Of a stretch of 64,000 bases of DNA, positions 4,756 through 43,179 are shown in pieces. The number at the start of each line of letters is the position of its first letter. Position 1 is the first letter of the stretch. Both the position numbers and the translations under genes were made by a program. Source of the stretch: Defluviitalea saccharophila (GTDB lineage Bacteria; Bacillota; Clostridia; Lachnospirales; Defluviitaleaceae). The notes under the pieces are model-generated. The model saw only the letters and a list, made by a program, of their open reading frames with translations. It was not told where the DNA came from and did not search any database. The DNA is taken from assembly GCF_038396635.1 (NCBI RefSeq), contig NZ_CP121687.1, positions 2,470,592 through 2,534,591 of the forward strand, written 5' to 3'.

Positions 4756-6204
4756 CTAGCTCGATTGAGACTTCTGCATCTGTAGAATGGTCTGCTGACC
4801 AAGAAAGAGAAGCAACTGCCATTTGCCAGGCATATTACTTGCATTTTGAAGTAAGGCTACTTCATTTAAAGGACGTTTCCAGCTGTATAAATCATGGGGA
4901 CGAAGGAAGTTATAGTAGGCAACCCACAGACTAACGCCATAGGCTGCACCATCTTCACTACCATAACCACAAGTAACTCGATAGGAAGCTTTAAAGGTAC
5001 GATTCAGTCGTTCGATCATCTGTTTAAAAGGACGAAATTTTTTCGATACAGCATCATCATTGGATAGCCCAATAACTTGAGTAATATCAAAAAACTTTTG
5101 TTCCTTTAAAGCAAACTGCTGAGCAGCTAAAGGATAGGCGCTGTAACCATCAGCAATAAACTTAAAAGCTTTTGGAAGACCATTCTTAAAGTTATTAAGA
5201 GCCATACGCATAGCTAAAATACAAGGCCCAACACCACGATTATCAGAAACCTGATAACCGAGAATGGACTTGGAAACAGCATCCATTATAAACCAAATAT
5301 ATCCCTTGATGCCTTTTACCTTGATATAAGTCTCATCTGCAGCAAGGGTAGAAGAAGGTTTATAGTCGTAGGTATCCACAAAAGGTTTAATAAGCACAGC
5401 GGCAGTACGTGCATAATTAGCAACCATGGTATGAGAAATAGAGACACCATGGATATCTCTTAAAGCTTGAGCAGTTTTTCGAAGTGAAAGTCCAAGATTA
5501 ACATGATAAGTAAGGCAAAGCCCCATGATATGAGCTGATTGTTTCTTGAATTTAAAGGAAGTAGCCCAAGACGGTAAAGGGTTTAAATCCATGTCAAAGA
5601 AATCTAGAGTGAATTCACGGTAGATGTAGTGAAGTTTATAATTATGCTTTTTTGAAGGACTTAAGTCTTTAGGCAGCTTCTTAAGATTAGCAGTGTAATA
5701 GGAACAGTTCTTGTTTACACACTTGTGAACACGGAAGTGTTTCCGATCTTTCTTAGGAGTAAGTGAATGTCCACAATAAGGACATACAAAAGTGATCGGT
5801 GTTTTAACTATTTCACCGGTTACAAATGTCTGGCCACAAATCTTGCACTGAAACTGACCTTTACCGCCATTATTATCGTAGAGATACTGATGAGGAGCAT
5901 TGCAAAGAGGGCAAACAGTATCTTCGGGAACTGTTCTAGGTTTATTCTTTTGAGTACGAACAGGCTTTAAAACTTTACCATACTTCCATTGATAGTAATC
6001 AAGAAGGAAATGAAAGTCCTGTTTTTCAAACTTCCGGATAATGGGAAGTTTGTCAGTTTTAAATTTTTGGTAATCAGGGCTATTAGAATCATCGAAAGCC
6101 CACTGTTTAAGAGGGATATGCTTTGAGATAAATAATAATAAATCAAAAATTTGTTTATGCAAGTATTGAATATATAGTAGTAAGTAAGTTATAATTGAGT
6201 CCAT
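4756..6204 (-). CDS. DDE transposase with zinc-ribbon N-terminus (IS6/IS240-like)
   Basis: A 482-residue transposase. The N-terminal third carries several zinc-ribbon cysteine pairs (CPLC, CKIC, CPYC, CVNKNC), suited to binding DNA ends. The catalytic core has the acidic residues in ADETYIKVKG, ADGYSAYP and IERLNRTFK, spaced as in the IS6/IS240 DDE domain, followed by YNFLRPH. Classical IS6 transposases are about 230 residues, so this is a long variant with an extended DNA-binding region. The frame is intact and lies within matched terminal repeats and a perfect target duplication, so the element may be active. Confidence 0.85.
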   Translation of the reverse strand: MDSIITYLLLYIQYLHKQIFDLLLFISKHIPLKQWAFDDSNSPDYQKFKTDKLPIIRKFEKQDFHFLLDYYQWKYGKVLKPVRTQKNKPRTVPEDTVCPLCNAPHQYLYDNNGGKGQFQCKICGQTFVTGEIVKTPITFVCPYCGHSLTPKKDRKHFRVHKCVNKNCSYYTANLKKLPKDLSPSKKHNYKLHYIYREFTLDFFDMDLNPLPSWATSFKFKKQSAHIMGLCLTYHVNLGLSLRKTAQALRDIHGVSISHTMVANYARTAAVLIKPFVDTYDYKPSSTLAADETYIKVKGIKGYIWFIMDAVSKSILGYQVSDNRGVGPCILAMRMALNNFKNGLPKAFKFIADGYSAYPLAAQQFALKEQKFFDITQVIGLSNDDAVSKKFRPFKQMIERLNRTFKASYRVTCGYGSEDGAAYGVSLWVAYYNFLRPHDLYSWKRPLNEVALLQNASNMPGKWQLLLFLGQQTILQMQKSQSS

Positions 6205-12345: not shown

Positions 12346-14682
12346 TTATTGGATTTCACCTACATATCTAAAAGCAGAAGACTCTTCACTATACCTGAAA
12401 TAGTACTTACGATGTTCAGTATAATCCAGTATATCATCTGCATATTTAACTATATCCGCATCAATAACGATTCCATCCAATTTCCCTTCTTGATTGAGTG
12501 CTGCTTCAGCTAATTTAACATTTTTAACTTTATAAGAGATATAAGGATTATTATAATGGTCATTGGCGGACTCTACTTTTTTGCTTAGGCCTATATAATA
12601 TTCTAGATCTTCTCTTACATATGTCTCGTGGAAACTAATATTGAGTTTTTTAGGATCCTTATAGTTTTCTTCATAACTTGACAGTCCCAAAGGATTTATA
12701 AGAAGAGACAAAGTGAGTTCAGCTCTTTGAGTGACAAAGTTTAGCCCGAATTGGCCATCGCCTAGTTCTTCAATTCCATCTATATCTGTTGTATAGGTCA
12801 AGTTTTTTCCAATAGGCTGCTCTGAACGTACAAAGCGGTATTTTTCTTGTGAAACTTGATATGCATTTTCTGCAACAGCTATAGCATCTGGAAGTTCAGA
12901 AAAAGTATATATCTCTAATTGATTAAAGTCTATCTTTGTAAGTTGATTTTGTATCGGTATTAAATGTTCTGCAGAAACGGCAAAGTTTAAATCCGCTTCA
13001 CACATACCGGAAGAGGTTACGCCAACGACTTTACCATTTTTATTAAATAATGCCACGCCGGAGTTACCATAAGTCATGGGTATGGAGATTTGAAGCAGAT
13101 GAATCCCTTTATTTGTCCAGGTGTTTGATATTATACAGGAAGAAACATCATTAAAGAGTCCTGAAGGAGAATTAATAGCTACTGCCCATTCGTCTTTTTC
13201 AAATTCATTGATTCCGCCAAGGGTAACCGGCTCAATTCCAATTTGTTCTTTTAATTTTAAAACAGCAAGGTCAAGGTGTGCATCGGCACATACTATTCCT
13301 TCCACAGCCAATGTGGAAGTGTCAGAAAGGCGAACAATAGCGTTTGTGCCACCTTTGATGACATGATAGTTTGTTACAATAAAACCATCTGCAATGAAAA
13401 ATCCACTGCCTTGAGATGTACCCTCAGCAGTATCAACCAGGACTGCTGCTACTTTAGAATTATTTTGCTTTACGATTTCTTTTACAGATTCTAATGCTTC
13501 CTTTTCGATTTTTTCATTTTTTTGATTTAGGTCTTCTTCGGAGATTTCTTTCACAGCAAGGTATTTTAATTCACCCTCTTTTGTTTCAATGATGATTGCA
13601 TTAGTGTATAAGGTGGCTTCTCCCTGGTTAATCCCTTCTTTTTCATAGTCTCTATCGCATATATAATCCAATTTTACAAGATATTCAATACCATGGGGTT
13701 TTTCGTTTTTCCCCATAATGGCTGCTTTTTTAAAGCTGCGTACTTCTGATTGCTCGAGCTCTATTACAGTGGTTTTAGCAAATTCAATAATCTCTTCTTC
13801 TGTAAATCGGCTGGAGTTTAACATATCTTCTTTGAAATAACTAAAGTGAATTCCATTTTTGTCTACAACATTTTTGATAGCTGTTGAATACGATTGAGTA
13901 TAATTGACTGTACTGGTATTTGTAAAGTCGATATCGTCTGTTGAAGTGTTTATGTGCGCTAACCATATTAGGGCAAGCATAAACAAACGAAAACCACGAG
14001 GTAACCATTTAAAAAACTTGCGTGCAGTTTTAGTGTATTCATCCGTATAAGCAGGGGATGAAGAGGGTGCCGTGTTTGTGCTGTAAACTTGATTTGAAGG
14101 TATAGCCGGTTCAGATGTGGTTGGTTCAGATATAGTCGGTTTAGATATAGACTGTTCAGGCATAGTCAATTCCGGTATTATCTGTTCCAGTGAAATTGGT
14201 TCAGGCATAGTGATTCCGGGGATAATCGATTCCGATTTACTTATTTTGGACAGCGTTGAATCTGTTAGATTCGATGGGTTGAATTCCGATGGAAGGACAA
14301 TATTTTTAAGCAGTTTCTCCAGCTGGTCAATAGCCTCATTTAATGAAATTTTTGAGATATCTAAAGTATACGGTGATGATAAATAGTATTCCAAATGCTT
14401 AGAAAGAGAGTCATCTTCAATCTTAAGTGTAACAATGGGCTTATCTTTTTCTTTGGCCTTTCCTACATCTCTTAACACCTGTTGAGAAGAATTCGAGGAA
14501 AATATGACAATTACAGCATGACACTTTTCAATAGCGCTTATCATAGCTTCAATAGGGCTTTGACCGAGTTGTATATCTCTGGTAGGGAGCCAGCATTTTA
14601 CCCCTTTTTGTTCGAGCATATGACCTATTGCTTCAGCAATTATTCTGTCATCAGGGGAATAAGAAACATAAATAAAACTCAT
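12346..14682 (-). CDS. TIR - repeat linker - TM - HtrA-like serine protease (copy 1)
   Basis: A 778-residue multidomain protein. Residues 1-110 are a TIR_2-type domain (YVSYSPDD, CWLPTRDIQLG, IVIFSSNSSQQV). In NADase TIRs a Glu follows this last motif; here it is Asp72. Residues about 140-200 form a Pro/Ser/Glu linker of pentapeptide repeats. A basic stretch and a short hydrophobic segment (LFMLALIWLAHI, about 233-244) would cross the membrane. A region of unknown fold (265-400) precedes a trypsin-like HtrA/S1C domain with His440, Asp471 and Ser541. The serine motif reads GNSGV rather than GNSGG. Topology predicts TIR inside, protease outside. The start follows GAGGTGAA. The frame is intact, but three functional motifs have drifted relative to copy 2. 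Confidence 0.85.
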   Translation of the reverse strand: MSFIYVSYSPDDRIIAEAIGHMLEQKGVKCWLPTRDIQLGQSPIEAMISAIEKCHAVIVIFSSNSSQQVLRDVGKAKEKDKPIVTLKIEDDSLSKHLEYYLSSPYTLDISKISLNEAIDQLEKLLKNIVLPSEFNPSNLTDSTLSKISKSESIIPGITMPEPISLEQIIPELTMPEQSISKPTISEPTTSEPAIPSNQVYSTNTAPSSSPAYTDEYTKTARKFFKWLPRGFRLFMLALIWLAHINTSTDDIDFTNTSTVNYTQSYSTAIKNVVDKNGIHFSYFKEDMLNSSRFTEEEIIEFAKTTVIELEQSEVRSFKKAAIMGKNEKPHGIEYLVKLDYICDRDYEKEGINQGEATLYTNAIIIETKEGELKYLAVKEISEEDLNQKNEKIEKEALESVKEIVKQNNSKVAAVLVDTAEGTSQGSGFFIADGFIVTNYHVIKGGTNAIVRLSDTSTLAVEGIVCADAHLDLAVLKLKEQIGIEPVTLGGINEFEKDEWAVAINSPSGLFNDVSSCIISNTWTNKGIHLLQISIPMTYGNSGVALFNKNGKVVGVTSSGMCEADLNFAVSAEHLIPIQNQLTKIDFNQLEIYTFSELPDAIAVAENAYQVSQEKYRFVRSEQPIGKNLTYTTDIDGIEELGDGQFGLNFVTQRAELTLSLLINPLGLSSYEENYKDPKKLNISFHETYVREDLEYYIGLSKKVESANDHYNNPYISYKVKNVKLAEAALNQEGKLDGIVIDADIVKYADDILDYTEHRKYYFRYSEESSAFRYVGEIQ
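14108..14227. repeat. 15-bp coding minisatellite in TIR-protease copy 1
   Basis: About eight degenerate 15-base units (example GGTTCAGATATAGTC on the plus strand) encode pentapeptides of the form PTxSE or PExxx on the minus strand, between the TIR and membrane segments. In-frame gain or loss of units would change linker length without breaking the frame. Confidence 0.75.
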
Positions 14683-14742
14683 TATTTCACCTCATATAAA
14701 ATACTTACTAGTCACCATATTTTCTCATGGCTTACTTTTGTG

Positions 14743-14797
14743 GGTTGGATGTTGTACTACCCCCATAAATCAGATATCTAGGTCCAACCTATGGGGG
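14743..14797. other. Interleaved inverted repeats (possible pseudoknot) between TIR genes
   Basis: GGTTGGA at 14743-14749 pairs with TCCAACC at 14783-14789. CCCCCATA at 14760-14767 pairs with TATGGGGG at 14790-14797. The order 1-2-1'-2' is that of an H-type pseudoknot on either strand. On the minus strand it lies downstream of the TIR-WD40 stop and about 60 bases upstream of the copy 1 start, so it could affect read-through, stability or translation. Confidence 0.45.
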
Positions 14798-14813
14798 CAG
14801 GGCAGTCTATTTT

Positions 14814-17768
14814 TTATTCAATGATATAATATTTTATCTTTTCTTCTTCACTTAATTCCCGATTTCCCAGCTGTTTTCTTGCCTCTTCTTTTAGGGCATT
14901 GGTATCATAATGGGGCATTAAGATGACTTCGGAGTTATGGGAGCTTAATATAGTTTTTGAATGGCTATCTATATCCAGAATTCTGTCTATCTGCGCAAGT
15001 TTTTTATAATTGCTGGCATTCCAGAATATGCTGTCTCCATATTCTCCAATGGTAATTAGAAGGTTTCCGGCTTCTCTGTAAATACAATGGCTCAAATTAT
15101 TTCTATGGCCTGTAAGTTCTGCTTTCCATTGACCTGTTTTCACATCATAGACCTGAATCGTTTTGTCATCAAGACCTACAAGTAAATCCGAGCCATTATA
15201 GTTAAAAGCCATGGAAACTACGGAGAGATTAGGGGCTTCAATATGGCATATTTCTTTAAAAGTGCTCATGTCAAACAGGTATATGCCATTTTCACCTGCC
15301 AGAGCAAGAAGCGTGCTGTCCTTATTAAATGCTCCTTTTCTTAGAATTAAGTCACTAAAGGAATGAATGATTTCCCCGGTTTGTATATCGTATAAATAGG
15401 CATTTCCGTCCCAATCTATAACCAATAGATTATTACCATTGCCAGAAAAGAGGAAATCACTGATAAAACTATAATCACTGATGGTTAGAACTTCTTTGCA
15501 CTGTAAAATATCCAATACTTTAATTCCATCTCCTGTCTGAAAAGCAGCAAATGTGCCATCAGCGTTATATCTATAATCGGTAAATTCACCAGCAGGGATA
15601 CTTGTTAATTCTTTGAGGGTTGAAAGCTCCCAAAGTCTTAGATAACCGTCTTCAGATAAGGAAATGATTTTGGTATCCGTAGGGTCAAAGCAGGCATCCA
15701 CAACCACTCCTTCAAGCCCTGTAAGTTTTGAAATTAAAGTTTTTTGTTCTATGTCCCAGACATATATAGCAGATTCATCATAATCAAAGGTCAGGGCTTT
15801 TTTGCCATCATTACTGAACTTTCCTGATCTTATAGAAGTGCTGTGGCCTTCCAGTCTTGTTAAATTTGGTGCCTCTATCATTTTCCAAATATATGCCTTG
15901 TTAGCATTGGATGAAGCAGTAGCTATTAGGCCATTGCCCATATCCATGCTCCTGATAGGAGTATTTTGATAAAGTCTCCACCAGTCAATTTCCATTCCGT
16001 TTTGTAGAGAGTAAAATTGAATATTTCCATCGTAGGTTGCAGCCACTATAAAGTCTCCATCTTTAGTGACTATTACAGAATGAACGGCATCTCCATGGGT
16101 AAAGCTATATAACATCTCTTTGGTAGTAGCATTGATCACCCGAACGATTTCGTCCTCTGTAAAAATAACGATGTTAGAGTCTTTAGGACTAAATATCGGA
16201 TATTTTATAGAAGAGCTGTCAACATGGATGGTGGCAAGAGCACTTCCGTCATTTGCTGACCAAATTTGCAGGCTTCCTTTGCCTTTGCTAAGAGGATCAC
16301 TTGTATCAAAATAATTAGAAACTGCAGCGATTTTATTTCCGTCATGACTAAATGCCAGGGAGTAAACATACTCGTAAGTACAGGAAAGGGAGTATAATTC
16401 CTTTTGGTTGATGGTATCAAATACTAAAGTTAAACCATTGTTTGTTCCTACGGCGATTTTTGATCCATCGTTATTAAATTGCAGGCTATAGACATATCCG
16501 TCGTCTAAATTGCTGATAGGAAGACTAAATAATTCTGTTCCGGTTTTAATATCTATTAAATGGAGCATATCAGAACTTAACGCTATTGTTTTCCCGTCAG
16601 GATTTAAGGCGATATGATTAAAATATCCTTCTAATTCCCAGAGCGTTGTTCCGGAGTTTATATCCCAGGCAGCAGCCCCTCGATCGGTTAAAGAGACGAT
16701 GGCTGTACCGTCTTTTGTAAAGAAGGTGTTTCCTTCATCTATAAAAGTAGTATCATAGGGGAAGGAGTGAAGCAGTTCTCCGTTCTCCGTATTCCATAAA
16801 TAGATATTTCCGTCGTTACATACTGTAAAGACCTTTGAACCATCATCGCTGATTTTGATATCTGTTATCCCTTTTCTGTGATTTAAGGCAATATCGCTTA
16901 CGAAATAATAATCTGTTTTATATGCTGCTAATGCCTGGCTTAAGGCATATTCTGCTTCTTCAACATAAGGCCTTTCAGGATGCTCTAAATTAATGGGCAG
17001 TGCTTCTAAGGCAAGAAGCATAGCGGTTCTTCTGTCTCCTTCTTCTAAAAGCTGTTTAGATAAATCGGATAAATATAAGGACTGCCCCCTTAGAGTCTTA
17101 TCAACCTGCAGCTTTAGTTTTAGAGCCTGCCATGCACTAAAAGAGCCAAAAGCAAGAAAGAATAGGGCAGCACTTACCGAAACCGTTACCACTCTTTTAA
17201 TAAACCTTTCCCTATGCCGCTGCTTAAGGTCATCATAATGGCATCCCAATATGGGAGCTAAGAGTCTTAGTATTTCTGTTTTAAGTTTTTTAGACATTTC
17301 TTTTAAGTTTTTTCCTCTGATATCAGCAGCCAGAGGTTCAACTTCTATGAGTTCTTCTGTAATGATTCCATCATCATTTATAGTTTGTTTTGGAATAAAA
17401 CGAAGTTGTTCAGGAAAAGATTCGCTGGGTTCTCCTTCAATTAATAGTGCAAGTATTTTGCCATGACCGTGAAGCTTAGAAAAGGTTTCAATTTCTTTTA
17501 ATACCCATTGAGACTGGGGGGTACGGGGAGAGCAGATGACGATAAGATATTCGGCATTAATCAGTGCTACTTCAATACTGCTCGCAAGATTACTGGAGGT
17601 TGGCAGTTCATCCCTGTCTCTAAAAATGCGATTGATTTTTCTTTTACCTATTTTTTTAGCAATTGAAGAAGGAACTCTAAAGGTTTCCAGCATCTTATGA
17701 AGTTTTTCTGCTATGGTTTTATCTGGTTCTGTATGACGATAACTAATAAATGCTTCATATTTTTTCAT
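14814..17768 (-). CDS. TIR - TM - WD40 repeat membrane protein
   Basis: A 984-residue protein. Residues 1-95 form a TIR domain (FISYRHTEPDK, FRDRDELPTSS, LIVICSPRTPQSQWVLKE) that keeps the glutamate (about Glu92) expected in NADase-type TIRs. A basic region precedes one membrane helix (about 192-213). After a helical linker with a TPR-like stretch (LSKQLLEEGDRRTAMLLALEALP), at least twelve WD40/YVTN-like beta-propeller blades follow from about residue 285, many with the pattern ISDDGSKVFTVCNDGNIYLWN. This suggests two propellers outside the membrane and a TIR effector inside. The start is the ATG after GGAGGC; the ATG five codons upstream overlaps that ribosome site. It lies between two TIR-protease paralogues, all on one strand. 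Confidence 0.85.
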   Translation of the reverse strand: MKKYEAFISYRHTEPDKTIAEKLHKMLETFRVPSSIAKKIGKRKINRIFRDRDELPTSSNLASSIEVALINAEYLIVICSPRTPQSQWVLKEIETFSKLHGHGKILALLIEGEPSESFPEQLRFIPKQTINDDGIITEELIEVEPLAADIRGKNLKEMSKKLKTEILRLLAPILGCHYDDLKQRHRERFIKRVVTVSVSAALFFLAFGSFSAWQALKLKLQVDKTLRGQSLYLSDLSKQLLEEGDRRTAMLLALEALPINLEHPERPYVEEAEYALSQALAAYKTDYYFVSDIALNHRKGITDIKISDDGSKVFTVCNDGNIYLWNTENGELLHSFPYDTTFIDEGNTFFTKDGTAIVSLTDRGAAAWDINSGTTLWELEGYFNHIALNPDGKTIALSSDMLHLIDIKTGTELFSLPISNLDDGYVYSLQFNNDGSKIAVGTNNGLTLVFDTINQKELYSLSCTYEYVYSLAFSHDGNKIAAVSNYFDTSDPLSKGKGSLQIWSANDGSALATIHVDSSSIKYPIFSPKDSNIVIFTEDEIVRVINATTKEMLYSFTHGDAVHSVIVTKDGDFIVAATYDGNIQFYSLQNGMEIDWWRLYQNTPIRSMDMGNGLIATASSNANKAYIWKMIEAPNLTRLEGHSTSIRSGKFSNDGKKALTFDYDESAIYVWDIEQKTLISKLTGLEGVVVDACFDPTDTKIISLSEDGYLRLWELSTLKELTSIPAGEFTDYRYNADGTFAAFQTGDGIKVLDILQCKEVLTISDYSFISDFLFSGNGNNLLVIDWDGNAYLYDIQTGEIIHSFSDLILRKGAFNKDSTLLALAGENGIYLFDMSTFKEICHIEAPNLSVVSMAFNYNGSDLLVGLDDKTIQVYDVKTGQWKAELTGHRNNLSHCIYREAGNLLITIGEYGDSIFWNASNYKKLAQIDRILDIDSHSKTILSSHNSEVILMPHYDTNALKEEARKQLGNRELSEEEKIKYYIIE

Positions 17769-17797
17769 GAGTATTGCCTCCATAGGATTATTTACTA

Positions 17798-17826
17798 AAA
17801 CCCTAGATCATATTGATCTAGGGTTT
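17798..17826 (-). terminator. Terminator-like hairpin after TIR-protease copy 2
   Basis: AAACCCTAGATCA pairs perfectly with its complement around TAT; four T follow on the minus strand. It resembles the hairpin after copy 1 (12304-12334), so the duplicated unit included its terminator. Its weak T-run may allow read-through into the TIR-WD40 gene. Confidence 0.65.
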
Positions 17827-17839
17827 AATGCATATGATT

Positions 17840-20317
17840 TTATTGGATTTCGCCCACATATGTGAAATCATAATTTTCATCGTTAAATCTAAAATAGTAC
17901 GTATGTCTTATGAAAGTCATCTTCTTTTGATTTAGGGTCCTTATAGTATTCTTCATAGTCCCCTGTTATTCCAATAAAATCTATAATATTGGATAAAGCA
18001 TATTCGGCATCATGAATGACATAATCTGGATCGTATGAATCACCGAATGTCTTAGTGAACAGCTCGTCAAATCTACTTATATCTGTTGTATAGGTTAAAT
18101 TTTCCCCAATAGGCTGATCTGAACGTACAAAGCGATATTTACCGTGCGAAGCATTAGTGTTTTTAGTTGCATTTTCCTTTGATGTAGAAGTTGAAACAGA
18201 AGCCAGTAAAGCATTTTGATAGGCCTTTTCTGCTACGGATACAGCATTTGGAAGTTCAGCAAAAGTATAGATATCTAATTCATTAAAGTCTATTCCTTTA
18301 AGTTGATTTTGTACCGATATTAAATGTTCTGCAGAAACTGCAAAGTTCAAATCTGCTTCACCTATACCGGAAGTGGTTACGCCAATTACTTTTCCTTTTT
18401 CATTAAATAATGCACCACCGGAGTTACCATGGGTAATGGGTATTGAGATTTGAATGAGATAAGTACCTACCTTTTCCCAGGTATTTGATATTATACCGGT
18501 AGAAACAGTATTAAAAAGTCCTAAAGGAGAGCCAATGGCTACTGCAACTTCACCTTTTTCAACTTCATTGATTCCACCAAGGTTTACCGGCTCAATTCCA
18601 ACTTGTTCTTTTAGTTTTAGAACAGCCAGGTCAAGCATTGCATCGGCACATACTATTCCATCTACATCTAGTATGGTTTCGTCTGAAAGGTGGACAGCTG
18701 CCTTAGTTCCATCTTTGATGACATGATAGTTTGTTACAATAAAACCATCTGCAATGAAAAATCCGCTGCCTTGAGCGACGCCTTCAGGGACTTCAACCAT
18801 TACTACCACCACTTTAGGATCATTTTGCTGTACGATTTCTTTACAGATTTTAATGACTCTTCTGCAGTGCCGGAAGGAACAAATGATTGCAGGGTATCTT
18901 CAGTAGCAATATTATCATTCCCTTTGAATTCCTGATAAGCTACTTCGATTGCTCCGTTTCTTTTATCAAGATCTTCTTTAGATATTCCTTCCATAGCAAG
19001 GTATTTTAATTCACCATCTTTTGTTTCGATGATAATTGCATTATTGTACAAGGTGACTTCTCCCTGTCTATGTTTAACCCCTTCTTCTGTTTCTATTTCA
19101 TAGTCTGCATAGCATACAAAGTCCAATTTTACAAGATATTCTATACCATGGGGTTTTTCGTTTTTACCCATGACGGCGACATCTTCAAAGCTGCGCACTT
19201 CTAATCCCATCATGGCAAACAAAACATCTTCCTGTATTGGAAATAAAGTATATTCCGGGCCTTGATAAGCATACTTATTATAAAACTCAGCGGAACTGTC
19301 TAGTCGATCAAGTTCCATTACAGCAGTTTTAGCGAATTCTACAATATCTTCTTCTGTAAATCTGCTGGAGTTTGACGTATCCTCTTTGAAATAACTAAAG
19401 TGAATTCCATTCTTGTCTACAATATCCGTTATATTTGTTGAAGATGACTCAGTATAATTGACTCCGGTGGTACCTTCAGAGTCGGTATTTTCTACTGGAG
19501 TATTTATAATTCCTAACAATGCTACTCCTACCATGAATAAACCGATAATGATTCCAACCCCAAAGAAAATGCCTATCGTTTTTAGAACTTTGGTTGCAGA
19601 TTTATTTTCTCCATGGCTAGAAGCAGGATATGAAGATGTTGTCACAGGGGTATTAGGAATCTGATTTGAAGGTAGAGCCGGTTGAGGCGCATTCTGTTCT
19701 TGTATGGTCTGTGCTGATACAGTCTGCTCAAGGATAGTGGATTCTGGTGCAGCCACTTCTGATACAGCTGGTTCTGAAACCGTCGGCTGCGGTTCAGTTT
19801 GTTCCGATGCAGTCAGTTCTGATACAGTCTGCTCCGGTATAGCACGTTCGGGGATAGCTGACTCAGGCTCACTAGTTTCAGGAATAGTGGAATCCGTATT
19901 AGATTCGCTATATTCAGACGGTGGCATAATATTTTTAAGTATTTCTGCAAGCTGATCAATAGTCTCATTTATTGTATTTTTTGTAGCATCTAAAGTAAAA
20001 GGAGTTGATAAATAGTATTCTAAATGTTTAGAAGGTGGGATATCCTGAATTTTAAGTGTAACAATGATTTTGTCTTTTTCTACTGCCTTTCCTACCTCTC
20101 TTAAAACTTGTTGAGAAGAGTTGGAATTAGAGGAAAAGATGACGATTACGGCATTACACTTTTCAATAGCGTTAATTACAGCTTCACCATAGCTTTGACC
20201 TAGTTGTACATCTCTAGCAGGAATCCAGCATTTTAAGCCTTTTTCCTCTAATCCATTACATATTGCTTCAGCAACCGCTTTGTCATTAGAGGAATAGGAA
20301 AGATAAATATAACTCAT
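17840..20317 (-). pseudogene. TIR - repeat linker - TM - HtrA-like protease (copy 2), broken
   Basis: A paralogue of the gene at 12346-14682 in two frames. The first piece (20317-18803, 504 residues) has a TIR domain with the conserved Glu74, a pentapeptide-repeat linker and a full-length membrane helix (IGIFFGVGIIIGLFMVGVAL). It ends prematurely in SYSKMILKWW. The second piece (to 17889) has an intact HtrA-like domain (TNYHV, MLDLAVL, GNSGGALF). Comparison with copy 1 shows one A missing from an A-run near 18838-18843. A further loss of about 80 codons with frame change near 17915 leaves the true C-terminal motif (YYFRF...YVGEIQ) out of frame, ending at 17840. GAGGTGAA precedes the ATG. Confidence 0.85.
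19695..19889. repeat. 15-bp coding minisatellite in TIR-protease copy 2
   Basis: About thirteen degenerate 15-base units (example AGTTCTGATACAGTC on the plus strand) encode pentapeptides such as TVSEQ and AVSEP. The unit length matches the array in copy 1, but the number differs (about thirteen against eight). Confidence 0.8.
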
Positions 20318-20446: not shown

Positions 20447-20561
20447 CTGAATTCATTTTTTCCTCTCATCTAGGGGATTCTCCAAAGGGCATTTTTTATA
20501 TGTATATTTAACTGGTTTTAGGACAAAATTTTCAATATACAAAGGAAAGGAGAGCCAATAT

Positions 20562-22475
20562 ATGAGTGAAATAACATTAGAAAAACCCGAAGGCAGAATA
20601 AGCTACCATGATTCCGTAGAGGAAATGGTAAAACGCATTCGGGAAGACGGTATGTCCAATGTATTCGATAGATGGGATTTACAAGAAAAGATACGCTGCA
20701 AATTCTGTCTGGAGGGCTTAAGCTGTCAGCTTTGTTCCCAAGGCCCTTGCAGAATAAGTGAAAAAGGCGGACAGGATAAAGGTGTCTGCGGTATCGGCCC
20801 GGATGCCATGGCAATGAGAAACCTGCTTCTTAGAAATATTATGGGTGCGGGGACTTACAGCCACCATGCCTATGAAGCCTTTAGAACTCTAAGAGCCACA
20901 GGAGAAGGAAAAACGCCTTTCAAAATTAAAGATGTGGATAAACTTAAGTGGATGTGTGAAAAAGTTGGGATTGGCGTAAGTCAGGATATGAATAAAATGG
21001 CCATTGAACTGGCTGACTTCCTGGAGCATCAACTGCGAATCGGAACCGACGAACCGAATATTATGGTTGAAGTCTTTGCGCCGAAAAAAAGAAAGCAGCT
21101 CTGGCGAGATCTGCATATTTATCCTGCAGGGGTAACCCATGAAGAACAAATATGTGTAGCAAGTTGCCTTACCAATGTAGATGGTGACCATGTTTCCTTA
21201 GCAAAGAAAGCCTTAAGACTAGGCCTGGCGACGATTTATAATGCCCAAATAGGCCTGGAAATGACTCAGGATATATTGTTTGGAACTCCAAAACCCCACG
21301 AAGTTACAGTGGACTTAGGTATTATGGACCCCGATTATATCAACATTGTATTTAACGGGCATCAGCCTTGGGCAGGGGTTGCAACCATACAAAAAGTAAG
21401 GGATCCGAAAGTTCAGGAAAGAGCAAAGGCAGCAGGGGCTAAGGGACTTAGAATAGTAGGTTCCATTGAAACAGGACAAGAACTCCTTCAAAGATTTGAA
21501 GTGGATGATGTATTTGTAGGGCTTATGGGGAACTGGCTAGCCATCGAACCTCTCTTGGCTACGGGAACCGTAGATGTCATGGCGATGGAAGAAAACTGTT
21601 CTCCACCGGCTATTGACATGTATGCTGAAAAATATCAGGTCACCCTGGTGAGTGTAAGTACGATTGTCTCTATGCCAGGACTGGAGCATGCAATTCCTTA
21701 TCATCCTGATAAAGTAGATGAAATGGCAGATACCTTAATTGATTTGGCAATCGAAAACTTTAAAAAGAGAAAAGGCAAGGTAGAGCCTAAGGTTCCAAAG
21801 ATTACTACAAAGGCGATTGCCGGATTTTCCACAGAAGCGGTACTTGAGGCCCTTGGAAATAAATTAGATCCGTTGGTGGATGTTATTAAAGCAGGAAAAA
21901 TCAAAGGCGTTGTTGCCCTTGCTAACTGTTCTACATTGCGAAACGGTCCTCAGGATTGGAATACTGTTAATTTAACAAAGCAACTCATTAAAAAAGATAT
22001 CCTGGTTGTCAGCGGTGGCTGTGGAAACCATGCCTTAGAAGTGGCAGGATTATGTAATCTGGATGCTGTAAATCTGGCAGGAGAAGGCTTAAAAGAAATT
22101 TGCAATGCCTTAAAGATTCCACCGGTACTGAGCTTTGGTACCTGTACCGATACAGGAAGAATTTCCATGCTGGTGACTGCTTTAGCGGATCACTTGGATG
22201 TGGATGTATCGGATCTTCCGATTGCCGTAACAGCGCCGGAATGGATGGAACAAAAAGCAACCATTGACGGAGTATTTGCCATAGCTTATGGGGCATATAC
22301 CCATCTGTCTCCTACACCGTTTATTACCGGGGCACCTGCATTGGTTAAATTATTAACTGAAGATGTAGAAGGATTAACTGGCGGAAAAGTAGCCTTAGGA
22401 GACAATCCGGTAGAAGTAGCCAATAACATAGAAGCACATATTATTTCAAAACGAAAGAAATTGGGGCTTAATTAA
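20562..22475 (+). CDS. CooS-family protein (CO dehydrogenase-like) lacking a C-cluster Cys
   Basis: A 637-residue CooS-fold protein. The N-terminal FeS cysteines are present: C46, C49, C55, C58, C63 and C76 (SQGPCRI). Of the C-cluster ligands I can see the His in NGHQP (about H267) and cysteines in ENCS, ANCST, GGCGN and GTCTD. The motif that is ICCTG in true CO dehydrogenases reads SIETG at 301-305, so one cluster cysteine is absent. Such deviant proteins are known; Carboxydothermus CooS-V carries an Fe/S/O cluster and does not oxidise CO. No cooC, cooF or acetyl-CoA synthase gene is adjacent. An oxidoreductase acting on small N or O compounds is likelier than a CO dehydrogenase. AAAGGAGAG precedes the ATG. 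Confidence 0.85.
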   Translation: MSEITLEKPEGRISYHDSVEEMVKRIREDGMSNVFDRWDLQEKIRCKFCLEGLSCQLCSQGPCRISEKGGQDKGVCGIGPDAMAMRNLLLRNIMGAGTYSHHAYEAFRTLRATGEGKTPFKIKDVDKLKWMCEKVGIGVSQDMNKMAIELADFLEHQLRIGTDEPNIMVEVFAPKKRKQLWRDLHIYPAGVTHEEQICVASCLTNVDGDHVSLAKKALRLGLATIYNAQIGLEMTQDILFGTPKPHEVTVDLGIMDPDYINIVFNGHQPWAGVATIQKVRDPKVQERAKAAGAKGLRIVGSIETGQELLQRFEVDDVFVGLMGNWLAIEPLLATGTVDVMAMEENCSPPAIDMYAEKYQVTLVSVSTIVSMPGLEHAIPYHPDKVDEMADTLIDLAIENFKKRKGKVEPKVPKITTKAIAGFSTEAVLEALGNKLDPLVDVIKAGKIKGVVALANCSTLRNGPQDWNTVNLTKQLIKKDILVVSGGCGNHALEVAGLCNLDAVNLAGEGLKEICNALKIPPVLSFGTCTDTGRISMLVTALADHLDVDVSDLPIAVTAPEWMEQKATIDGVFAIAYGAYTHLSPTPFITGAPALVKLLTEDVEGLTGGKVALGDNPVEVANNIEAHIISKRKKLGLN

Positions 22476-22565: not shown

Positions 22566-23426
22566 ATGGAAAATCAGTGGCTTAAAGTCAGTACGAAAGC
22601 AGAAGGAGCAGAGCTGACAAGTATTCTGCTAAAAAAAGATAACACCGAATATTTATGGCAGGGAGATCCTAAAATATGGGGAAGACATGCGCCCATTTTG
22701 TTCCCCATTGTAGGAAGGCTTAAAGAAAATAGATGCACCATTGATGGAAAAGAATATCATATGACCCAGCATGGATTTGCGAGAGACATGACTTTTGATA
22801 TCCTGGAAGAATCCGAGGAGCATATTCTATATCAGCTGACAAGCAATGAAGATACCCTTAAACATTATCCCTATCGTTTTCAATTAAGAGTGGAGTACAT
22901 ATTAAAAGAAAAAAGTATCATAATAAAGTATTCCGTGAAAAATATCGATGATCAAAAAATATATTTTTCAATTGGTGCCCATCCCGGATTTAATTGCCCT
23001 CTCTTAGAAGGGGAAAGCATGGAAGACTATGTCTTGGAATTTGAAAAAGAAGAAGTTTTAGATAAAATGTGCTTGGATAATGGGCTCATTTTAGAAGAAA
23101 AACAACCCTTCTTAAATCATGAAAAAACAATTTCACTCACAAAGGATTTATTTATTAATGATGCCCTTATTGTAGAAAATACAGCATCTAAGTCCATCAC
23201 TTTAAAAAGCACGAAGTCCAATAAATCAGTATGTGTTACCTTTGATGAGTTTCGATATTTAGGCATTTGGTCAAAGCCTGAGGGAGCACCGTTTGTATGT
23301 ATTGAACCTTGGCTTGGCATTGCAGACTATAAAGATAAAACAGTAGATTTTAAGGACAAAGCAGGAATTCTATCCCTTGATCCTGAAGAAGAATCCCAAT
23401 GTTCCTATATCATTAGCATTGAGTAA
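22566..23426 (+). CDS. Aldose 1-epimerase family protein (LacX-like)
   Basis: A 286-residue galactose-mutarotase-fold protein. It has the family entry motif WGRHAPILFPIVGRL near residue 38, the catalytic-region His in QHGFARD near 69, GAHPGFNCPL near 138 and a C-terminal CIEPWLGIAD. It interconverts alpha and beta anomers of hexoses or their phosphates in the cytoplasm. The length fits the bacterial LacX-like subgroup. It stands alone between two terminators, with GGGGGAG before the ATG, so no pathway is indicated by neighbours. Confidence 0.85.
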   Translation: MENQWLKVSTKAEGAELTSILLKKDNTEYLWQGDPKIWGRHAPILFPIVGRLKENRCTIDGKEYHMTQHGFARDMTFDILEESEEHILYQLTSNEDTLKHYPYRFQLRVEYILKEKSIIIKYSVKNIDDQKIYFSIGAHPGFNCPLLEGESMEDYVLEFEKEEVLDKMCLDNGLILEEKQPFLNHEKTISLTKDLFINDALIVENTASKSITLKSTKSNKSVCVTFDEFRYLGIWSKPEGAPFVCIEPWLGIADYKDKTVDFKDKAGILSLDPEEESQCSYIISIE

Positions 23427-38682: not shown

Positions 38683-40434
38683 TTATTTCCATAGATTAAT
38701 TTTAATCTTTTTATTGTTTACGAAATATCTCCATTGTCTCATAAGATATGGGATCAGATAATGGTCTACGCCAAAGGCTCTTCCAGCTCCGCCTAACATT
38801 GGAATGGAAGAAGCTAAGAACCATAAATCGTTAAGTCCTGTAGAAAGTAAGAAGTTAATATTCATACCAATGGATACAATCGCTGCAATAAATGTAAAGG
38901 TACCGGTAATAAATGCTAGTCCAAGTCCTAATTCCGTAAGGATAATTACTTTTTGGAACAACATAGCGTTAGGAACAATGAGTGTATCAACAATCCATGC
39001 GTACCAACTTGGGGTATGATTTGAAACGAGTTGCATGATAGAAGCTCCGGTGGTTGCATCCGCATTGCTTCCGGCAAGCATTTCGTATTCAAGCCATCCG
39101 CCACTAGCTTTTTCAAGACCTGACATAAGCCACATGTATCCAAGATATAGTCTTAACAGCACTAACCAGAAGGTAGGAGTTAATCTCTCTAAATGACTGT
39201 GGATAATGCCTTTTTTATGTCTTACACCCCAAAGCTCATGCTTTAAGTAATTTACAATGAGTTCAAATCCGCCAATTCCAAAGAGGTAATGGATGTTAAC
39301 CAAATGTTTCATAAAGATTGCAGGGAATCCGGATAATTTGACACCCATCAAATCTGCAACCCCATAGTTTTTGCCAAGTGAAACCATTACGCCATGAAGT
39401 TTTGGTTCGCCTTTTTCCAATTCTTTATTGCGAATAAGATTTAATATGTTTTTCGCTGCAATTGTTCCTGTTTCTAAAGCAGCTTCAACCAGTGCAGGCA
39501 GAGGTTTATTGTCTTTTGTGATAAAGAGGGCATAGTCACCCACTGCAAACACGTTCTTATAAGGAGTTCTTGTATATTCATCTACGCAAACTCTTTCGCC
39601 TCTTCCTTTTTCCAGCTTCAGTTCTGTGAAGCATCGGTTAGCTTGTACCCCACCGGTCCAAATCAGTGTATGAGATTCGATGACATCTTTATCGTTTAAT
39701 ACGAAAGATGTTTCATTCACTTTTGTGATTCTGGATTCTGTAAGGATTTCTACCTTTAATTTATTCTTGAGATATTTTACAGCTTTCTCAATCAAAGAAT
39801 CATCTAAAATAGGAAGTATTTTAGGCAATGCTTCAATAAGAATAAGTCTTACTTCATTTCTATTCACATTATATTGTTCTGCCAAATCGTTTACCCAAAA
39901 AGCCAGTTCTCCAATCATTTCGGTTCCGGTAAAGCCACCGCCGCCTACTGCAAAAGTAAGGTAAGACTTTCTCTTTGCAGGATCTTTTTCTGAAGAAGCT
40001 TTTTGGAACATCTTTAAAATATGTTCTTTAATTACTAAAGAATCCTTATGGGACCATAGAGTAAAGCTATGTTCTTTCATACCTTCTATGCCGAAGAAAT
40101 TAGGTTCACTTCCTATGCCCATAATAAGGTAGTCATAGGGATAAGTATTGTTTTCTGATCTTAATACTTGTCCTTCAAAATCGACATCTTGGATATAATC
40201 TTGAACAACATGGACATCAGTATATTGGAAAATACTTCTTAAATGAACCAATACTCCATCTTCTTCAATACGGTTTCCAGCAATCTCATGGAGTTCTGTA
40301 AGAAGTGTATGATACGGATTTTTATCTATAATATAAATTTCAATATCATCGGCCTTCTTTTTCTTTTTGTTCAAGGTTAGTGCAGCTTGTATTCCACCGT
40401 AGCCGGCACCAAGTATTACTACTTTTTTACTCAT
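38683..40434 (-). CDS. ndh2: Type II NADH dehydrogenase with C-terminal DoxX-like membrane domain
   Basis: A 583-residue FAD protein. It begins with the Rossmann motif VVILGAGYGGIQAA and shows NDH-2 features: DKNPYHTLLTELHEIA, the NADH-binding FAVGGGGFTGTEMIGELA near residue 160, and FAVGDYALF near 300. About 170 residues after the oxidoreductase part form four membrane helices of DoxX type (LVLLRLYLGYMWLMSGLEK). Ndh2 with such a membrane tail feeds electrons from NADH into a dedicated quinone pool in flavin-based extracellular electron transfer. It is divergent from the flavin lipoprotein and ApbE genes, which supports that role. The ATG at 40434 follows AAGGAGG; an ATG eight codons upstream lacks a site. 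Confidence 0.85.
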   Translation of the reverse strand: MSKKVVILGAGYGGIQAALTLNKKKKKADDIEIYIIDKNPYHTLLTELHEIAGNRIEEDGVLVHLRSIFQYTDVHVVQDYIQDVDFEGQVLRSENNTYPYDYLIMGIGSEPNFFGIEGMKEHSFTLWSHKDSLVIKEHILKMFQKASSEKDPAKRKSYLTFAVGGGGFTGTEMIGELAFWVNDLAEQYNVNRNEVRLILIEALPKILPILDDSLIEKAVKYLKNKLKVEILTESRITKVNETSFVLNDKDVIESHTLIWTGGVQANRCFTELKLEKGRGERVCVDEYTRTPYKNVFAVGDYALFITKDNKPLPALVEAALETGTIAAKNILNLIRNKELEKGEPKLHGVMVSLGKNYGVADLMGVKLSGFPAIFMKHLVNIHYLFGIGGFELIVNYLKHELWGVRHKKGIIHSHLERLTPTFWLVLLRLYLGYMWLMSGLEKASGGWLEYEMLAGSNADATTGASIMQLVSNHTPSWYAWIVDTLIVPNAMLFQKVIILTELGLGLAFITGTFTFIAAIVSIGMNINFLLSTGLNDLWFLASSIPMLGGAGRAFGVDHYLIPYLMRQWRYFVNNKKIKINLWK

Positions 40435-40607
40435 AAAATCATCCTCCTTATAAGACATATTATTAACAACTCAATGCACATTAACTCATACTAATTATAT
40501 CAAAATAAAATTAAAAAGTATAATTTAAAAACCAACGATTTCGAGAGGATTACTAAGAATGAGTGAGCTATTTGGACTCTAGCATATGAAAATTAATTAT
40601 GTTAACT

Positions 40608-40636
40608 TTGACAAAAAAATGTCGCAATAATACAAT
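40608..40636 (+). promoter_or_regulatory. Strong sigma-A promoter of the flavin lipoprotein gene
   Basis: A perfect TTGACA at 40608-40613, a 17-base spacer, then TACAAT at 40631-40636, 46 bases upstream of the ATG. The near-consensus match suggests high expression. Confidence 0.8.
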
Positions 40637-40681
40637 GTGATAGTAACAATAATTTTTAATTACAAAGAGGAGGGCGCTATA

Positions 40682-41521
40682 ATGAAAAAAATTATAGCTT
40701 TGGCATTGGCATTAGGATTATCCTTTAGTGCATTAACTGGATGCGGTGCTAAGAAAGAAGAAGCTACACCACCTGCTGATACAACACAAACTCAAACAGA
40801 ACAACCAGCAGAAACAAAAGAAGAAGCTGGCGGAGCAGCATTAGCTGACGGTACTTACAAAGCAGAAGGCGATGCTTTTGATGATCACGGTTGGAAACCA
40901 ATCATTACTCTTGAAGTAAAAGATGGTAAGATCGTTGCAGTTGATTACGATGAAATCAACGAAGAAGGTACATTAAAAGAAACTAACGAAGATTACAATG
41001 CAAGAATGAAAGAAAAAACTAATATAGGACCTGCAGAAGCATTCCCACAATTAGAGCAAGCGCTCATTGAAAAACAAGATGTTGACGCAGTAGACACAGT
41101 AACTGGTGCAACTCATGGTTCCGATAGCTTCAAAGAAATGGTTAAGAAAGCTTTAGCAGCAGGACCAGTAGCAGCAGATGCATCAGGTGCATTAAAAGAT
41201 GGTACTTATACAGCAGAAGGTGACGCTTTTGATGACCACGGCTGGAAACCAATCATTACGATCGAAGTAAAAGATGGTAAAATCGCAGCAGTTGATTACA
41301 ATGAAATCAACGAAGAAGGTACATTAAAAGAAACTGATGAAGCATACAATAAAAATATGAAAGCTAAAGTTAACATAGGACCTGCAGAAGCATTCCCACA
41401 ATTAGAACAAGCATTAATTGAAAAACAAGATGTAGATGCAGTGGATGTTGTAACTGGTGCAACTCATGGTTCCGAAAGCTTCAAAGAAATGGCTAAAAAG
41501 GCTTTAGAAGCTGCAAAATAA
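40682..41521 (+). CDS. pplA: Lipoprotein with two FMN-binding domains (PplA-like)
   Basis: A 279-residue lipoprotein. The signal ends in the lipobox LTGC (Cys21), followed by a Thr/Gln/Glu-rich linker. Two almost identical FMN-binding domains follow (about 56-160 and 172-277), each with GDAFDDHGWKPIIT and the flavinylation motif VTGATHGS, whose Thr would take FMN by a phosphoester bond. The next gene encodes ApbE, the enzyme that makes this bond. In Listeria PplA such a protein passes electrons from the membrane to outside acceptors. AGAGGAGG precedes the ATG at 40682; the frame upstream overlaps the promoter. Confidence 0.88.
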   Translation: MKKIIALALALGLSFSALTGCGAKKEEATPPADTTQTQTEQPAETKEEAGGAALADGTYKAEGDAFDDHGWKPIITLEVKDGKIVAVDYDEINEEGTLKETNEDYNARMKEKTNIGPAEAFPQLEQALIEKQDVDAVDTVTGATHGSDSFKEMVKKALAAGPVAADASGALKDGTYTAEGDAFDDHGWKPIITIEVKDGKIAAVDYNEINEEGTLKETDEAYNKNMKAKVNIGPAEAFPQLEQALIEKQDVDAVDVVTGATHGSESFKEMAKKALEAAK

Positions 41522-41538
41522 TAAATAATTATTATTTT

Positions 41539-41572
41539 CAATTCCCCGAGAGTTATCTTGGGGAATTGTTTT
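41539..41572 (+). terminator. Terminator between pplA and apbE
   Basis: CAATTCCCCGAGA pairs with TCTTGGGGAATTG apart from one wobble, followed by TTTTC. It partly separates the abundant lipoprotein transcript from apbE. Confidence 0.8.
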
Positions 41573-41597
41573 CATGCCTTCCTTTAAAAATTGTCAA

Positions 41598-41627
41598 TTG
41601 ATATTTATTAATTATAAGCGATATAAT
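41598..41627 (+). promoter_or_regulatory. Probable promoter of the apbE-eet operon
   Basis: TTGATA at 41598-41603, an 18-base spacer and a perfect TATAAT at 41622-41627, 44 bases before the apbE ATG. Confidence 0.6.
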
Positions 41628-41670
41628 ATATAATAAACAAGTTGAGAATAAAATATAAGTTGGTGAATAA

Positions 41671-42711
41671 ATGAAAAAAAATATATTTTTAATGCTCTTA
41701 ATTACAATCATAGCTATTCTTTCAGGATGTGCAAGCAATAAAGGAAAGAATACAGTAATTAAGGAAGAAATCTATGCTCTTGGTACAGTCATTCAAATAC
41801 AGATCTATGATGCTGATGAGGAAAAAGCAAAAAAGGCCATAGAAGAGTCAGAAAAGAGAGTCCAGGAAATAGAAAATAAAATGACTGTTAATAAAGAAAA
41901 GAGTGAGGTTATTTTAATAAACGAAAATTCCGGTATAAATTCCGTTCAAGTAAGCCCGGATACATTTTATGTTATTCAAAAAGCTAAAAAATATAGTGAT
42001 TTATCAGGTGGTGCCTTTGATCTTACCGTTGAACCGATCGTAAAACTATGGGGCATCGGAACAGAGAATGCCAGGGTACCCAAGCAGGAAGAGATAGATG
42101 CTTTACTTGGTCTGGTGGATTATAATGATGTAGTACTGGATGAAAGTACGAATCAAGTAAAACTAAACAGAGAAGGACAAGCTATTGATTTAGGGGCAAT
42201 TGCCAAAGGTTATGCGGGGGATGAAGTAAAAAAGATATTAAAGGAGCATGGTATAAAAACTGCTTTTGTTAATTTAGGAGGAAACGTCGTTACCCTGGGC
42301 AGCAAGCTGGATGGTTCACCCTGGCGTATAGGGGTTCAAAATCCTTTGGATGAAAGAGGTAAACATATTGCGGTGATAGAAGTTGTGGATGAAACCCTTG
42401 TAACTTCAGGAAACTATGAAAGATATTTTATCGAAGACGGGAAAAGATACCATCATATCATTGATCCTAAAACAGGTTATCCGGCAGAAGCCGGAATTAT
42501 AAGCAGCACAATTGTAACCAATAGTTCCATTGATGCAGATGCCCTCTCCACCAGTGTTTACGTTTTAGGACTGGAAAAAGGGATGGAGCTAATAGAAAGC
42601 TTAGAGAATGTGGAAGCAGTTATTGTTACGGAAGATAAAAAAATCTATGTTACATCGGGATTAAAAGATCGATTTAAATTGGAAAATGAAGAGTTCCAAC
42701 TGGCCAACTAG
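41671..42711 (+). CDS. apbE: ApbE family FAD:protein FMN transferase (FmnB-like lipoprotein)
   Basis: A 346-residue lipoprotein (lipobox LSGC near residue 19). ApbE motifs are in order: GTVIQIQIYDAD near 35, SGGAFDLTVEPIVKLWG near 112, IDLGAIAKGYAGDE near 172, FVNLGGNVVTLG near 198 and the Mg-binding DADALSTSVYVLG near 290. It moves FMN from FAD to threonine in exported proteins, here most likely the two-domain lipoprotein upstream. It heads a tight group with the NusG-II, Gx and polyprenyl synthase genes, which fits the flavin-based electron transfer locus of Firmicutes. Confidence 0.92.
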   Translation: MKKNIFLMLLITIIAILSGCASNKGKNTVIKEEIYALGTVIQIQIYDADEEKAKKAIEESEKRVQEIENKMTVNKEKSEVILINENSGINSVQVSPDTFYVIQKAKKYSDLSGGAFDLTVEPIVKLWGIGTENARVPKQEEIDALLGLVDYNDVVLDESTNQVKLNREGQAIDLGAIAKGYAGDEVKKILKEHGIKTAFVNLGGNVVTLGSKLDGSPWRIGVQNPLDERGKHIAVIEVVDETLVTSGNYERYFIEDGKRYHHIIDPKTGYPAEAGIISSTIVTNSSIDADALSTSVYVLGLEKGMELIESLENVEAVIVTEDKKIYVTSGLKDRFKLENEEFQLAN

Positions 42712-42732
42712 ATCTTTAAAGAGGAGAGTAAA

Positions 42733-43116
42733 ATGAAAAAAGGGGATAAAATCGTTGCAATAGGTGTATTCGCTTTGATTTTGATCAGTTCTTTAACTGT
42801 GGGACTATACAGATATTTTAATAAAGGAAAACCGATGAATGCAAAAATCATCCAAAATCAAAAAGTCATAGAAGTGATTGATTTAAATTCAGTAGAAGAA
42901 CCAAGAGAATGGAAGATAGAAGAAGAAAACGGAGGGTTCAATACCATCCGAGTGGAAAATGGAAGGATTCGCTTTATTGATGCGGATTGTCCCGATTTGG
43001 TTTGTGTTCATTCAGGGTGGTTATCAGAACCGGGAGCCATAGCAGTATGCCTACCTCATAAATTATCCATCCATATTGAAGGGATAAACGAAGAAATTGA
43101 TCAGGTATCCTATTGA
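42733..43116 (+). CDS. eetA: NusG domain II-containing membrane protein (EetA-like)
   Basis: A 127-residue protein with one N-terminal membrane helix (about 7-26) and an outside domain with the NusG-II pattern: DADCPDLVCVHSGWLSEPGA followed by AVCLPHKLSIHI. Three conserved cysteines are visible. In Listeria the equivalent EetA is needed for extracellular electron transfer together with EetB. AGAGGAG precedes the ATG, 21 bases after apbE. The assignment rests on domain type plus the surrounding genes. Confidence 0.82.
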   Translation: MKKGDKIVAIGVFALILISSLTVGLYRYFNKGKPMNAKIIQNQKVIEVIDLNSVEEPREWKIEEENGGFNTIRVENGRIRFIDADCPDLVCVHSGWLSEPGAIAVCLPHKLSIHIEGINEEIDQVSY

Positions 43117-43179
43117 GTGTATTTGCGGGGAGCAGTATGAACTTTGAGTATGCCAAAGATAGATAGAATGGTGGTTATC

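Follow-up and report, generated by a model that had tools for sequence, protein, structure and literature searches.

The closest described relative of the protein considered here is CooS-V of Carboxydothermus hydrogenoformans, for which the structures 7B7Q, 7B7T, 7B95, 7B97 and 7B9A have been reported (PMC9311411). The available part of that work characterizes CooS-V by the type of its cluster, an absence of CO activity and reductase behavior. Its hybrid cluster is coordinated by Glu295; His259, Cys338, Cys449, Cys480, Cys521 and Glu556 are also named at the cluster, with Asn337 nearby. Databanks annotate CooS-V proteins as CO dehydrogenases (PMC9311411). Proteins of this type fall in structural group D-1 of clade D, which is defined, in the accessible text of PMC6344411, by a Glu in place of the first cluster-C Cys, a type III D cluster, a Tyr in place of the acid-base His, a Lys that is kept and an extra Glu that is added. 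Group D-1 shares its active-site residue set with HCP, the hydroxylamine reductase (PMC6344411). More distant comparisons are offered by the Ni,Fe-CODHs (CODH-II, CODH-IV and D. vulgaris CooS).

A gene for a protein of this kind lies in the stretch of DNA analyzed here (“the window”), which covers 64,000 nt of the Defluviitalea saccharophila genome, a single contig of 3.01 Mb that is 99.26% complete (Table 1). The encoded protein has in common with CooS-V its length, its fold, the listed cluster ligands, the bridging-cluster cysteines, the extra Glu and the Cys-to-Glu change. The listed ligands do not differ between the two. With the Ni,Fe-CODHs it shares the scaffold, the B cluster and five of the six cluster-C ligands, but at 32%–38% identity it differs from them in having Glu for Cys295, Tyr for the acid-base His and the added Glu563.

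Table 1. Features of the window around the CooS-V-type gene
Feature	Position in window	Strand	Basis or remark
CooS-V-type (clade D, group D-1) hybrid-cluster protein gene	20562..22475	+	637 aa; ORF, profile and structure matches
Glu303 codon, at the Cys295 position of Ni,Fe-CODHs	21468..21470	+	phmmer alignment; Glu in 80/80 orthologs
D-type Cys46 and Cys49; B-cluster Cys55, 58, 63 and 76	20697..20789	+	Alignment, ortholog conservation
Other hybrid-cluster ligands His267, Cys346, Cys456, Cys487, Cys528, Glu563	21360..22250	+	Alignment; roles as described in the available part of PMC9311411
Two-box element GTATA (20502-20506), N17, CAAAATT (20524-20530)	20502..20530	+	Ends 31 nt before ATG; candidate promoter
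Likely ribosome-binding site AGGAG	20548..20552	+	Sequence
TIR-domain gene, divergent from the CooS-V-type gene	18803-20317	-	Domain match
Aldose 1-epimerase gene	22566-23426	+	Domain match
TIR and trypsin-like fusion gene	12346-14682	-	Domain matches
WD40-repeat protein gene	14814-17783	-	989 aa
Trypsin-like gene	17889-18812	-	10-nt overlap with the TIR-domain gene 18803-20317

Cluster ligands and family assignment

What kind of CooS protein is this? The initial annotation, made from the letters alone, had pointed to SIETG in place of the ICCTG motif of CO dehydrogenases, and residues 301–305 do read SIETG. In the phmmer alignments, the Glu303 column holds SIESG in 7b7q and the CCTG segment in 6t7j, 6elq and 6b6v; the counterpart of Glu303 is Glu295 in CooS-V and Cys295 in CODH-II. 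No other Cys of the protein falls in that column, so the alignment leaves the proposed loss of the cysteine standing. Calling the cysteine “missing” was less apt: it is absent, but it is rather replaced by Glu, which is a cluster ligand in CooS-V (PMC9311411).

The substitution is neither a chance change nor an error, because Glu is kept at this position in 80/80 orthologs. The set comprises the best 80 of 237 relatives found, 77.7%–99.7% identical to the window protein and with some near-duplicates among them; of the named records, a metagenome-assembled “Candidatus Epulonipiscium” contig (L004) comes nearest. A record titled Calditrichales (L047) also carries a D-1 gene, 81% identical; its title looks wrong because its spoIIR match equals that of a genome from the window's own class (G140) in contig number, coordinates and score. 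The initial reading that the other cluster ligands are present holds throughout the same best 80 of 237 relatives: His267, Asn345, Cys346, Cys456, Cys487, Cys528, Glu563 and Lys565 are unchanged in 80/80, as are the four B-cluster cysteines, the two D-type cysteines and Tyr99. Across these relatives and the window protein, 224/637 positions are invariant, ligands included.

These positions match the published descriptions closely. His267, Cys346, Cys456, Cys487, Cys528 and Glu563 are the counterparts of the further CooS-V residues named at the cluster, and Asn345 stands for Asn337. By eye, in the 7b7q alignment, Tyr99 occupies the column of His93, the acid-base His. The full cluster-C cysteine set of active Ni,Fe-CODHs is not found, Glu303 standing in its place, and Glu563 is the extra glutamate as in hybrid-cluster proteins. 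Thus, the published D-1 definition fits the protein in Glu303, the other cluster-C ligands, Tyr99, Lys565 and Glu563.

Family and structure searches agree. The protein scores 900.6 bits against the NCBI model for the anaerobic CODH catalytic subunit (TIGR01702, cut-off 478) and falls far under the cut-offs of two hydroxylamine reductase (HCP) models (52.1 and 51.3 bits versus 367 and 360.8). The top solved sequence is 7b7q, at 877 bits, with 6t7j as the runner-up at 440 bits. An AlphaFold2 model built from a 23-sequence alignment (mean pLDDT 80.8, with residues 1–69 mostly below 50) confirms the fold: in a Foldseek search of the PDB, 7b9a and 7b7q come first at 62% identity over 623 columns, and the next match is at 38%. 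The protein is therefore nearer to CooS-V than to other CODHs by bits (877 versus 440) and by identity (62% versus 38%). From sequence score, ligand positions and fold, it is almost certainly a CooS-V-type protein of clade D, structural group D-1, which bears out the likeness to deviant CooS proteins suggested at the outset. As a member of a group already defined in PMC6344411, it is unremarkable, and its type is not new.

Could it still be a working CO dehydrogenase, with Glu303 substituting for Cys? The TIGR01702 score and a possible link between D-1 and CO oxidation in Methanosarcina acetivorans (PMC6344411) speak for this. Against it, the nearest solved relative, with the same ligands, is without Ni and showed no detectable CO activity, and the C295A and C295E variants of CODH-II were unable to oxidize CO, according to the available part of PMC9311411; in addition, no CdhC-type domain was found in the genome and no maturation gene adjoins. 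A CO-oxidizing enzyme is thus very unlikely, and by this analysis the protein very probably lacks CO activity. After CooS-V, it would form a homodimer in which a [2Fe-2S] cluster links the subunits and each subunit carries a [4Fe-4S] B cluster; the active site would have a nickel-free [4Fe-3S-nO] cluster with His267, Glu303, Cys346, Cys456, Cys487, Cys528 and Glu563 as ligands. Reduction would open the hybrid cluster to substrates, and the enzyme would then hand low-potential electrons to a small oxidant, which is the most likely chemistry on the analogy with CooS-V. Hydroxylamine, one of the substrates first suggested for assay, has already been tried on CooS-V, with very slow turnover (kcat 0.13 per s; PMC9311411).

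Genome and gene neighborhood

No maturation or ferredoxin gene adjoins the window gene, in agreement with the initial annotation; the neighbors are a TIR-domain gene and an aldose 1-epimerase gene. The TIR-domain gene is the near end of a cluster at window 12346-20317 (-), in which the adjacent trypsin-like and TIR genes together match the fusion gene (63% and 51% identity), as if they were a split second copy. When ORFs up to three places from the gene were clustered for the window and 79 loci (L004 was left out as near-identical), no general neighbor family emerged, the commonest being present at 13 of the 69 loci where the gene was located. Over all 80 of these loci, the window included, a same-strand ORF lies within 100 nt upstream at 7/80 and downstream at 5/80; among the remaining loci, five have no ORF at all on one side. 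This agrees with a 2026 survey (PMC13056359), the available part of which reports 64% of clade D genes without an operon neighbor, describes no clear neighborhood pattern for the clade and leaves it out of the operon discussion.

A prismane-family search of the source genome finds three places: the window gene, a gene at 1091110 that we take to be HCP from its family score and N-terminal motif, and a second CooS gene at 2637953 (L003 1297-3264, -). The second CooS has an intact CCTG motif and is flanked by a gene resembling cysteine synthase and by one for an NMT1-type substrate-binding protein. A CdhC-type acetyl-CoA synthase domain has no match in this genome.

Other parts of the window hold further loci. 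At 38683-44661, an NADH dehydrogenase-like gene (-) is succeeded by one whose product has two FMN-binding domains, and then by genes for ApbE, NusG domain II, heptaprenyl diphosphate synthase component I and a polyprenyl synthetase; the stretch resembles the locus for flavin-based extracellular electron transfer in Listeria. Two convergent C-5 cytosine methyltransferase genes lie at 58021-61067, the second with a long C-terminal extra part that has no Pfam match and is possibly a fused nuclease. Transposase-like genes are found at 4756-6204 (-), with IS240- and IS66-type DDE matches, and at 61795-63093 (-), with an HTH_38 match only; the latter is presumably of IS30 type. As for the second CooS, an arrangement beside an NMT1-type substrate-binding protein has been described for clade B (PMC6344411).

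The upstream element and forespore promoters

The sole new lead on the window gene lies in its control region. The two-box element upstream of the gene resembles promoters of the forespore sigma factors sigma-G and sigma-F, and we regard it as a putative promoter. The last 110 nt upstream of cooS-V carry a recurring pattern across orthologs of several genera (best 80 of 237 relatives). The expression [GA][CT]ATA-N13-16-G[GA]NNAN[ACT][ACT]T matches 42/81 upstream regions (these relatives and the window), as against 3.07 on average (8 at most) over 200 rounds of first-order resampling, and 5/158 stretches further upstream; a few of the 42, at odd distances, are probably chance matches. In a Desulfosporosinus locus (L017), the sequence upstream of cooS-V reads ACATA-N18-CAAACTTT. 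Within the source genome, the second CooS gene has no two-box match in the 145 nt upstream, and the HCP-like gene has a weaker match whose end lies 77 nt upstream of the start. Genome-wide, a relaxed pattern occurs at 94 places versus 70 for the reversed control, and an earlier pattern at 25 versus 50 for its control, so a single match means little and the weight lies in conservation. Seven of the 30 relaxed-pattern places for which DNA was returned (of the 94) stand shortly 5′ of an ORF by a simple rule; one of these belongs to a SASP gene, where GTATA-N18-CATACTT stands 21 nt upstream of the ATG.

The consensuses tabulated for B. subtilis are GTATA / GGNAANAMTR for sigma-F and GNATA / CAWAMTA for sigma-G (PMC3416734). 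When 80 cooS-V upstream regions (the window and 79 others; L018 was dropped as too short) were scored with B. subtilis consensuses against those of 598 other genes from the same loci, they exceeded the controls for sigma-F (p 8.6e-9), sigma-G (p 2.4e-9) and sigma-E (p 1.5e-11), with no excess for sigma-K (p 0.65) or sigma-A (p 0.59). On our reading of the sequences, the sigma-E signal comes largely from a CATATTT box. The element fits the sigma-E −35 consensus but not the −10, and a sigma-E promoter is still conceivable. Scores within two of the maximum are reached by 2.5% of cooS-V regions versus 1.0% of controls for sigma-E, 12.5% versus 2.3% for sigma-F and 57.5% versus 26.6% for sigma-G.

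As yardsticks, spoIIR, gpr and SASP genes were fetched from 25 genomes (the source genome and those of 24 loci). spoIIR marks sigma-F, gpr both factors and the SASP genes sigma-G (background found in part in PMC3416734 and PMC3789822). Some yardstick start codons are wrong, those of spoIIR in L095, L100, L103 and L110 and of a SASP gene in L184 being set inside the gene; the spoIIR comparison is weak because its “upstream” is then partly coding. The AAACTT core, chosen from cooS-V itself, occurs in 38/80 cooS-V, 5/30 SASP, 1/25 spoIIR, 2/25 gpr and 35/598 control upstream regions, and in 8.7% of shuffled cooS-V sequences. It ends 28–36 nt before the start codon in 29 of the 38 cooS-V regions that have it, and is scattered in controls. 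In 20 further SASP upstream regions, fetched after the choice of the core from the Clostridium genomes of the set, it occurs in nine (p 1.9e-6 versus the controls). The excess is smaller when all SASP genes (14/50) are set against AT-rich controls (25/254) and shuffles (13%). A reading in which sigma-F alone is responsible was considered and set aside: spoIIR has the GTATA box, but the AAACTT core in only one of 25 cases, some of them with wrong starts.

A further comparison used a two-box rule. It asks for at least 4/5 matches to GNATA and at least 6/7 to CAWAMTW, 17–18 nt apart, where the final W relaxes the published A and was adopted after the sequences had been seen. It is satisfied by 65/80 cooS-V and 40/50 SASP regions (25/30 in the first set and 15/20 in the second), 13/25 gpr and 11/25 spoIIR regions, versus 200/598 controls, 111/254 AT-rich controls and 30% of shuffled cooS-V sequences. 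With a perfect −10 box, the counts are 18/80 for cooS-V, 14/30 and 10/20 for SASP, 2/25 for gpr, 0/25 for spoIIR and 11/598 for controls. At the wrong spacing of 11–12 nt, they are 34/80 for cooS-V and 194/598 for controls; at 23–24 nt, cooS-V is still above controls (40/80 versus 166/598, p 7.1e-5). Base composition therefore explains part of the two-box signal, given this residual excess and the result with AT-rich controls. A weight matrix (PWM) built on 25 cooS-V elements exceeds a score of 6 in 65% of the 80 cooS-V regions (training rows included) and in 5% of the 598 controls, and in 2/30 SASP, 3/25 spoIIR and 0/25 gpr regions; its score distributions are shifted for spoIIR (p 0.0004) and SASP (p 0.011) but not for gpr (p 0.33). 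Since so few yardsticks match the matrix, the likeness to forespore promoters rests mainly on the two-box tests. Like the cooS-V element, the sigma-G promoters of SASP genes in Clostridium and in the source genome have boxes about 17–18 nt apart and a −10 box like CAAACTT or CATACTT, as in L196 and L211 (GGATA-N17-CAAACTTATA). The last −10 base is T in the window and in many cooS-V elements, and A in the published sigma-G consensus; use in the forespore is what this likeness would suggest.

There is also a reading in which the same CooS-V-type enzyme serves vegetative cells, either in housekeeping or under stress (nitrosative stress, oxidative stress or redox sensing); the upstream element would then be some other sort of promoter, or an operator, and its likeness to forespore promoters incidental. 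The raised sigma-E scores and AT-rich controls are in its favor, as are the presence of an HCP-like gene in the same genome and the stress or redox-sensing roles proposed in PMC9311411 and PMC13056359. Against it stand the boxes, spacing and −10 core that the element has in common with promoters of SASP genes in these genomes, and the absence of a raised sigma-A score. We regard the vegetative reading as a real but lesser possibility, and forespore expression of the window gene as fairly probable from the upstream sequences.

Sporulation and a possible spore role

Is the gene associated with sporulation? The source genome has sigG, spoIIR, gpr and SASP genes. In a sample of 293 Clostridia genomes, a D-1 gene (at least 72% identity) is present in 22, including partial matches in G142 and G120; other CooS matches are at most 40% identical, apart from one 64% fragment. 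spoIIR scores above its cut-off in 22/22 D-1 genomes versus 189/271 others (Fisher p 5.3e-4, uncorrected for ancestry), which also tells against a vegetative role, and in 29/38 genomes that have other CooS matches only (G050 included; p 0.011 versus 22/22). Among the 80 orthologs, spoIIR was found at 69 of the 74 loci examined, and the five without it are metagenome-assembled genomes. The 64%-identical fragment, at G050:C9:10027-10713, has one internal TGA and one TAA and is perhaps a decayed copy. Might the window gene itself be a functionless, decaying CODH gene? It is solitary in the window, and G050 retains just this fragment with its two stop codons. The window ORF, in contrast, is open and full-length, its relatives are highly constrained (the invariant positions counted above for the best 80 of 237) and the upstream element is kept across several genera, which makes decay extremely improbable.

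The literature gives mixed indications. In C. sporogenes, exosporium gel band 3 contained a “Carbon monoxide dehydrogenase” (G9F4A5, 68.4 kDa) together with SpoIVA (PMC4942563); this protein may or may not be of the D-1 subtype. Since abundant cell proteins, elongation factor Tu among them, are also on that list, contamination is possible (PMC4942563). Apart from this list, we recognized no link of CODH or CooS to forespore sigma factors or spores among the open-license titles and abstract beginnings listed, and none of four CODH and HCP terms occurs in PMC6362236. For C. autoethanogenum, expression of each of the three CODH genes is reported, that of the orphan cooS2 during growth, and inactivation of cooS2 had mild effects on growth (PMC4895105). 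From PMC6344411 and PMC13056359, cooS2 appears to be a clade D gene; its expression in growing cells favors the vegetative reading and speaks against a spore-only role. Outside the bacteria, D-1 has been reported in the archaeon M. acetivorans (PMC6344411), so a spore role could apply to the Clostridia branch alone; the available part of PMC13056359 assigns all three M. acetivorans CODHs to clade A.

Taken as a whole, the window gene very probably encodes a CooS-V-type hybrid-cluster enzyme that is not a CODH and that is, in Clostridia, a likely product of the forespore, to judge from its upstream region. In endospore-forming Clostridia, the source organism included, sigma-G, and perhaps sigma-F too, probably directs transcription of the gene in the forespore. 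Forespore transcription would mean that the protein is deposited in the spore, where the enzyme might act in protection, germination or outgrowth. That the Clostridia CooS-V (D-1) proteins are low-potential reductases made in the forespore under sigma-G or sigma-F, and stored in the spore to protect or wake it, is a proposition that we hold to be evenly balanced.

What would this mean for the family? If the spore reading is true, it would account both for the solitary gene and for near-normal growth upon inactivation. The CooS-V proteins, labeled CO dehydrogenases in databanks, have had no job assigned to them. A control region like that of spore genes would give them a time and a place, the forespore, and this lead would turn the purpose of CooS-V into a question open to reporter, proteomics and mutant experiments.
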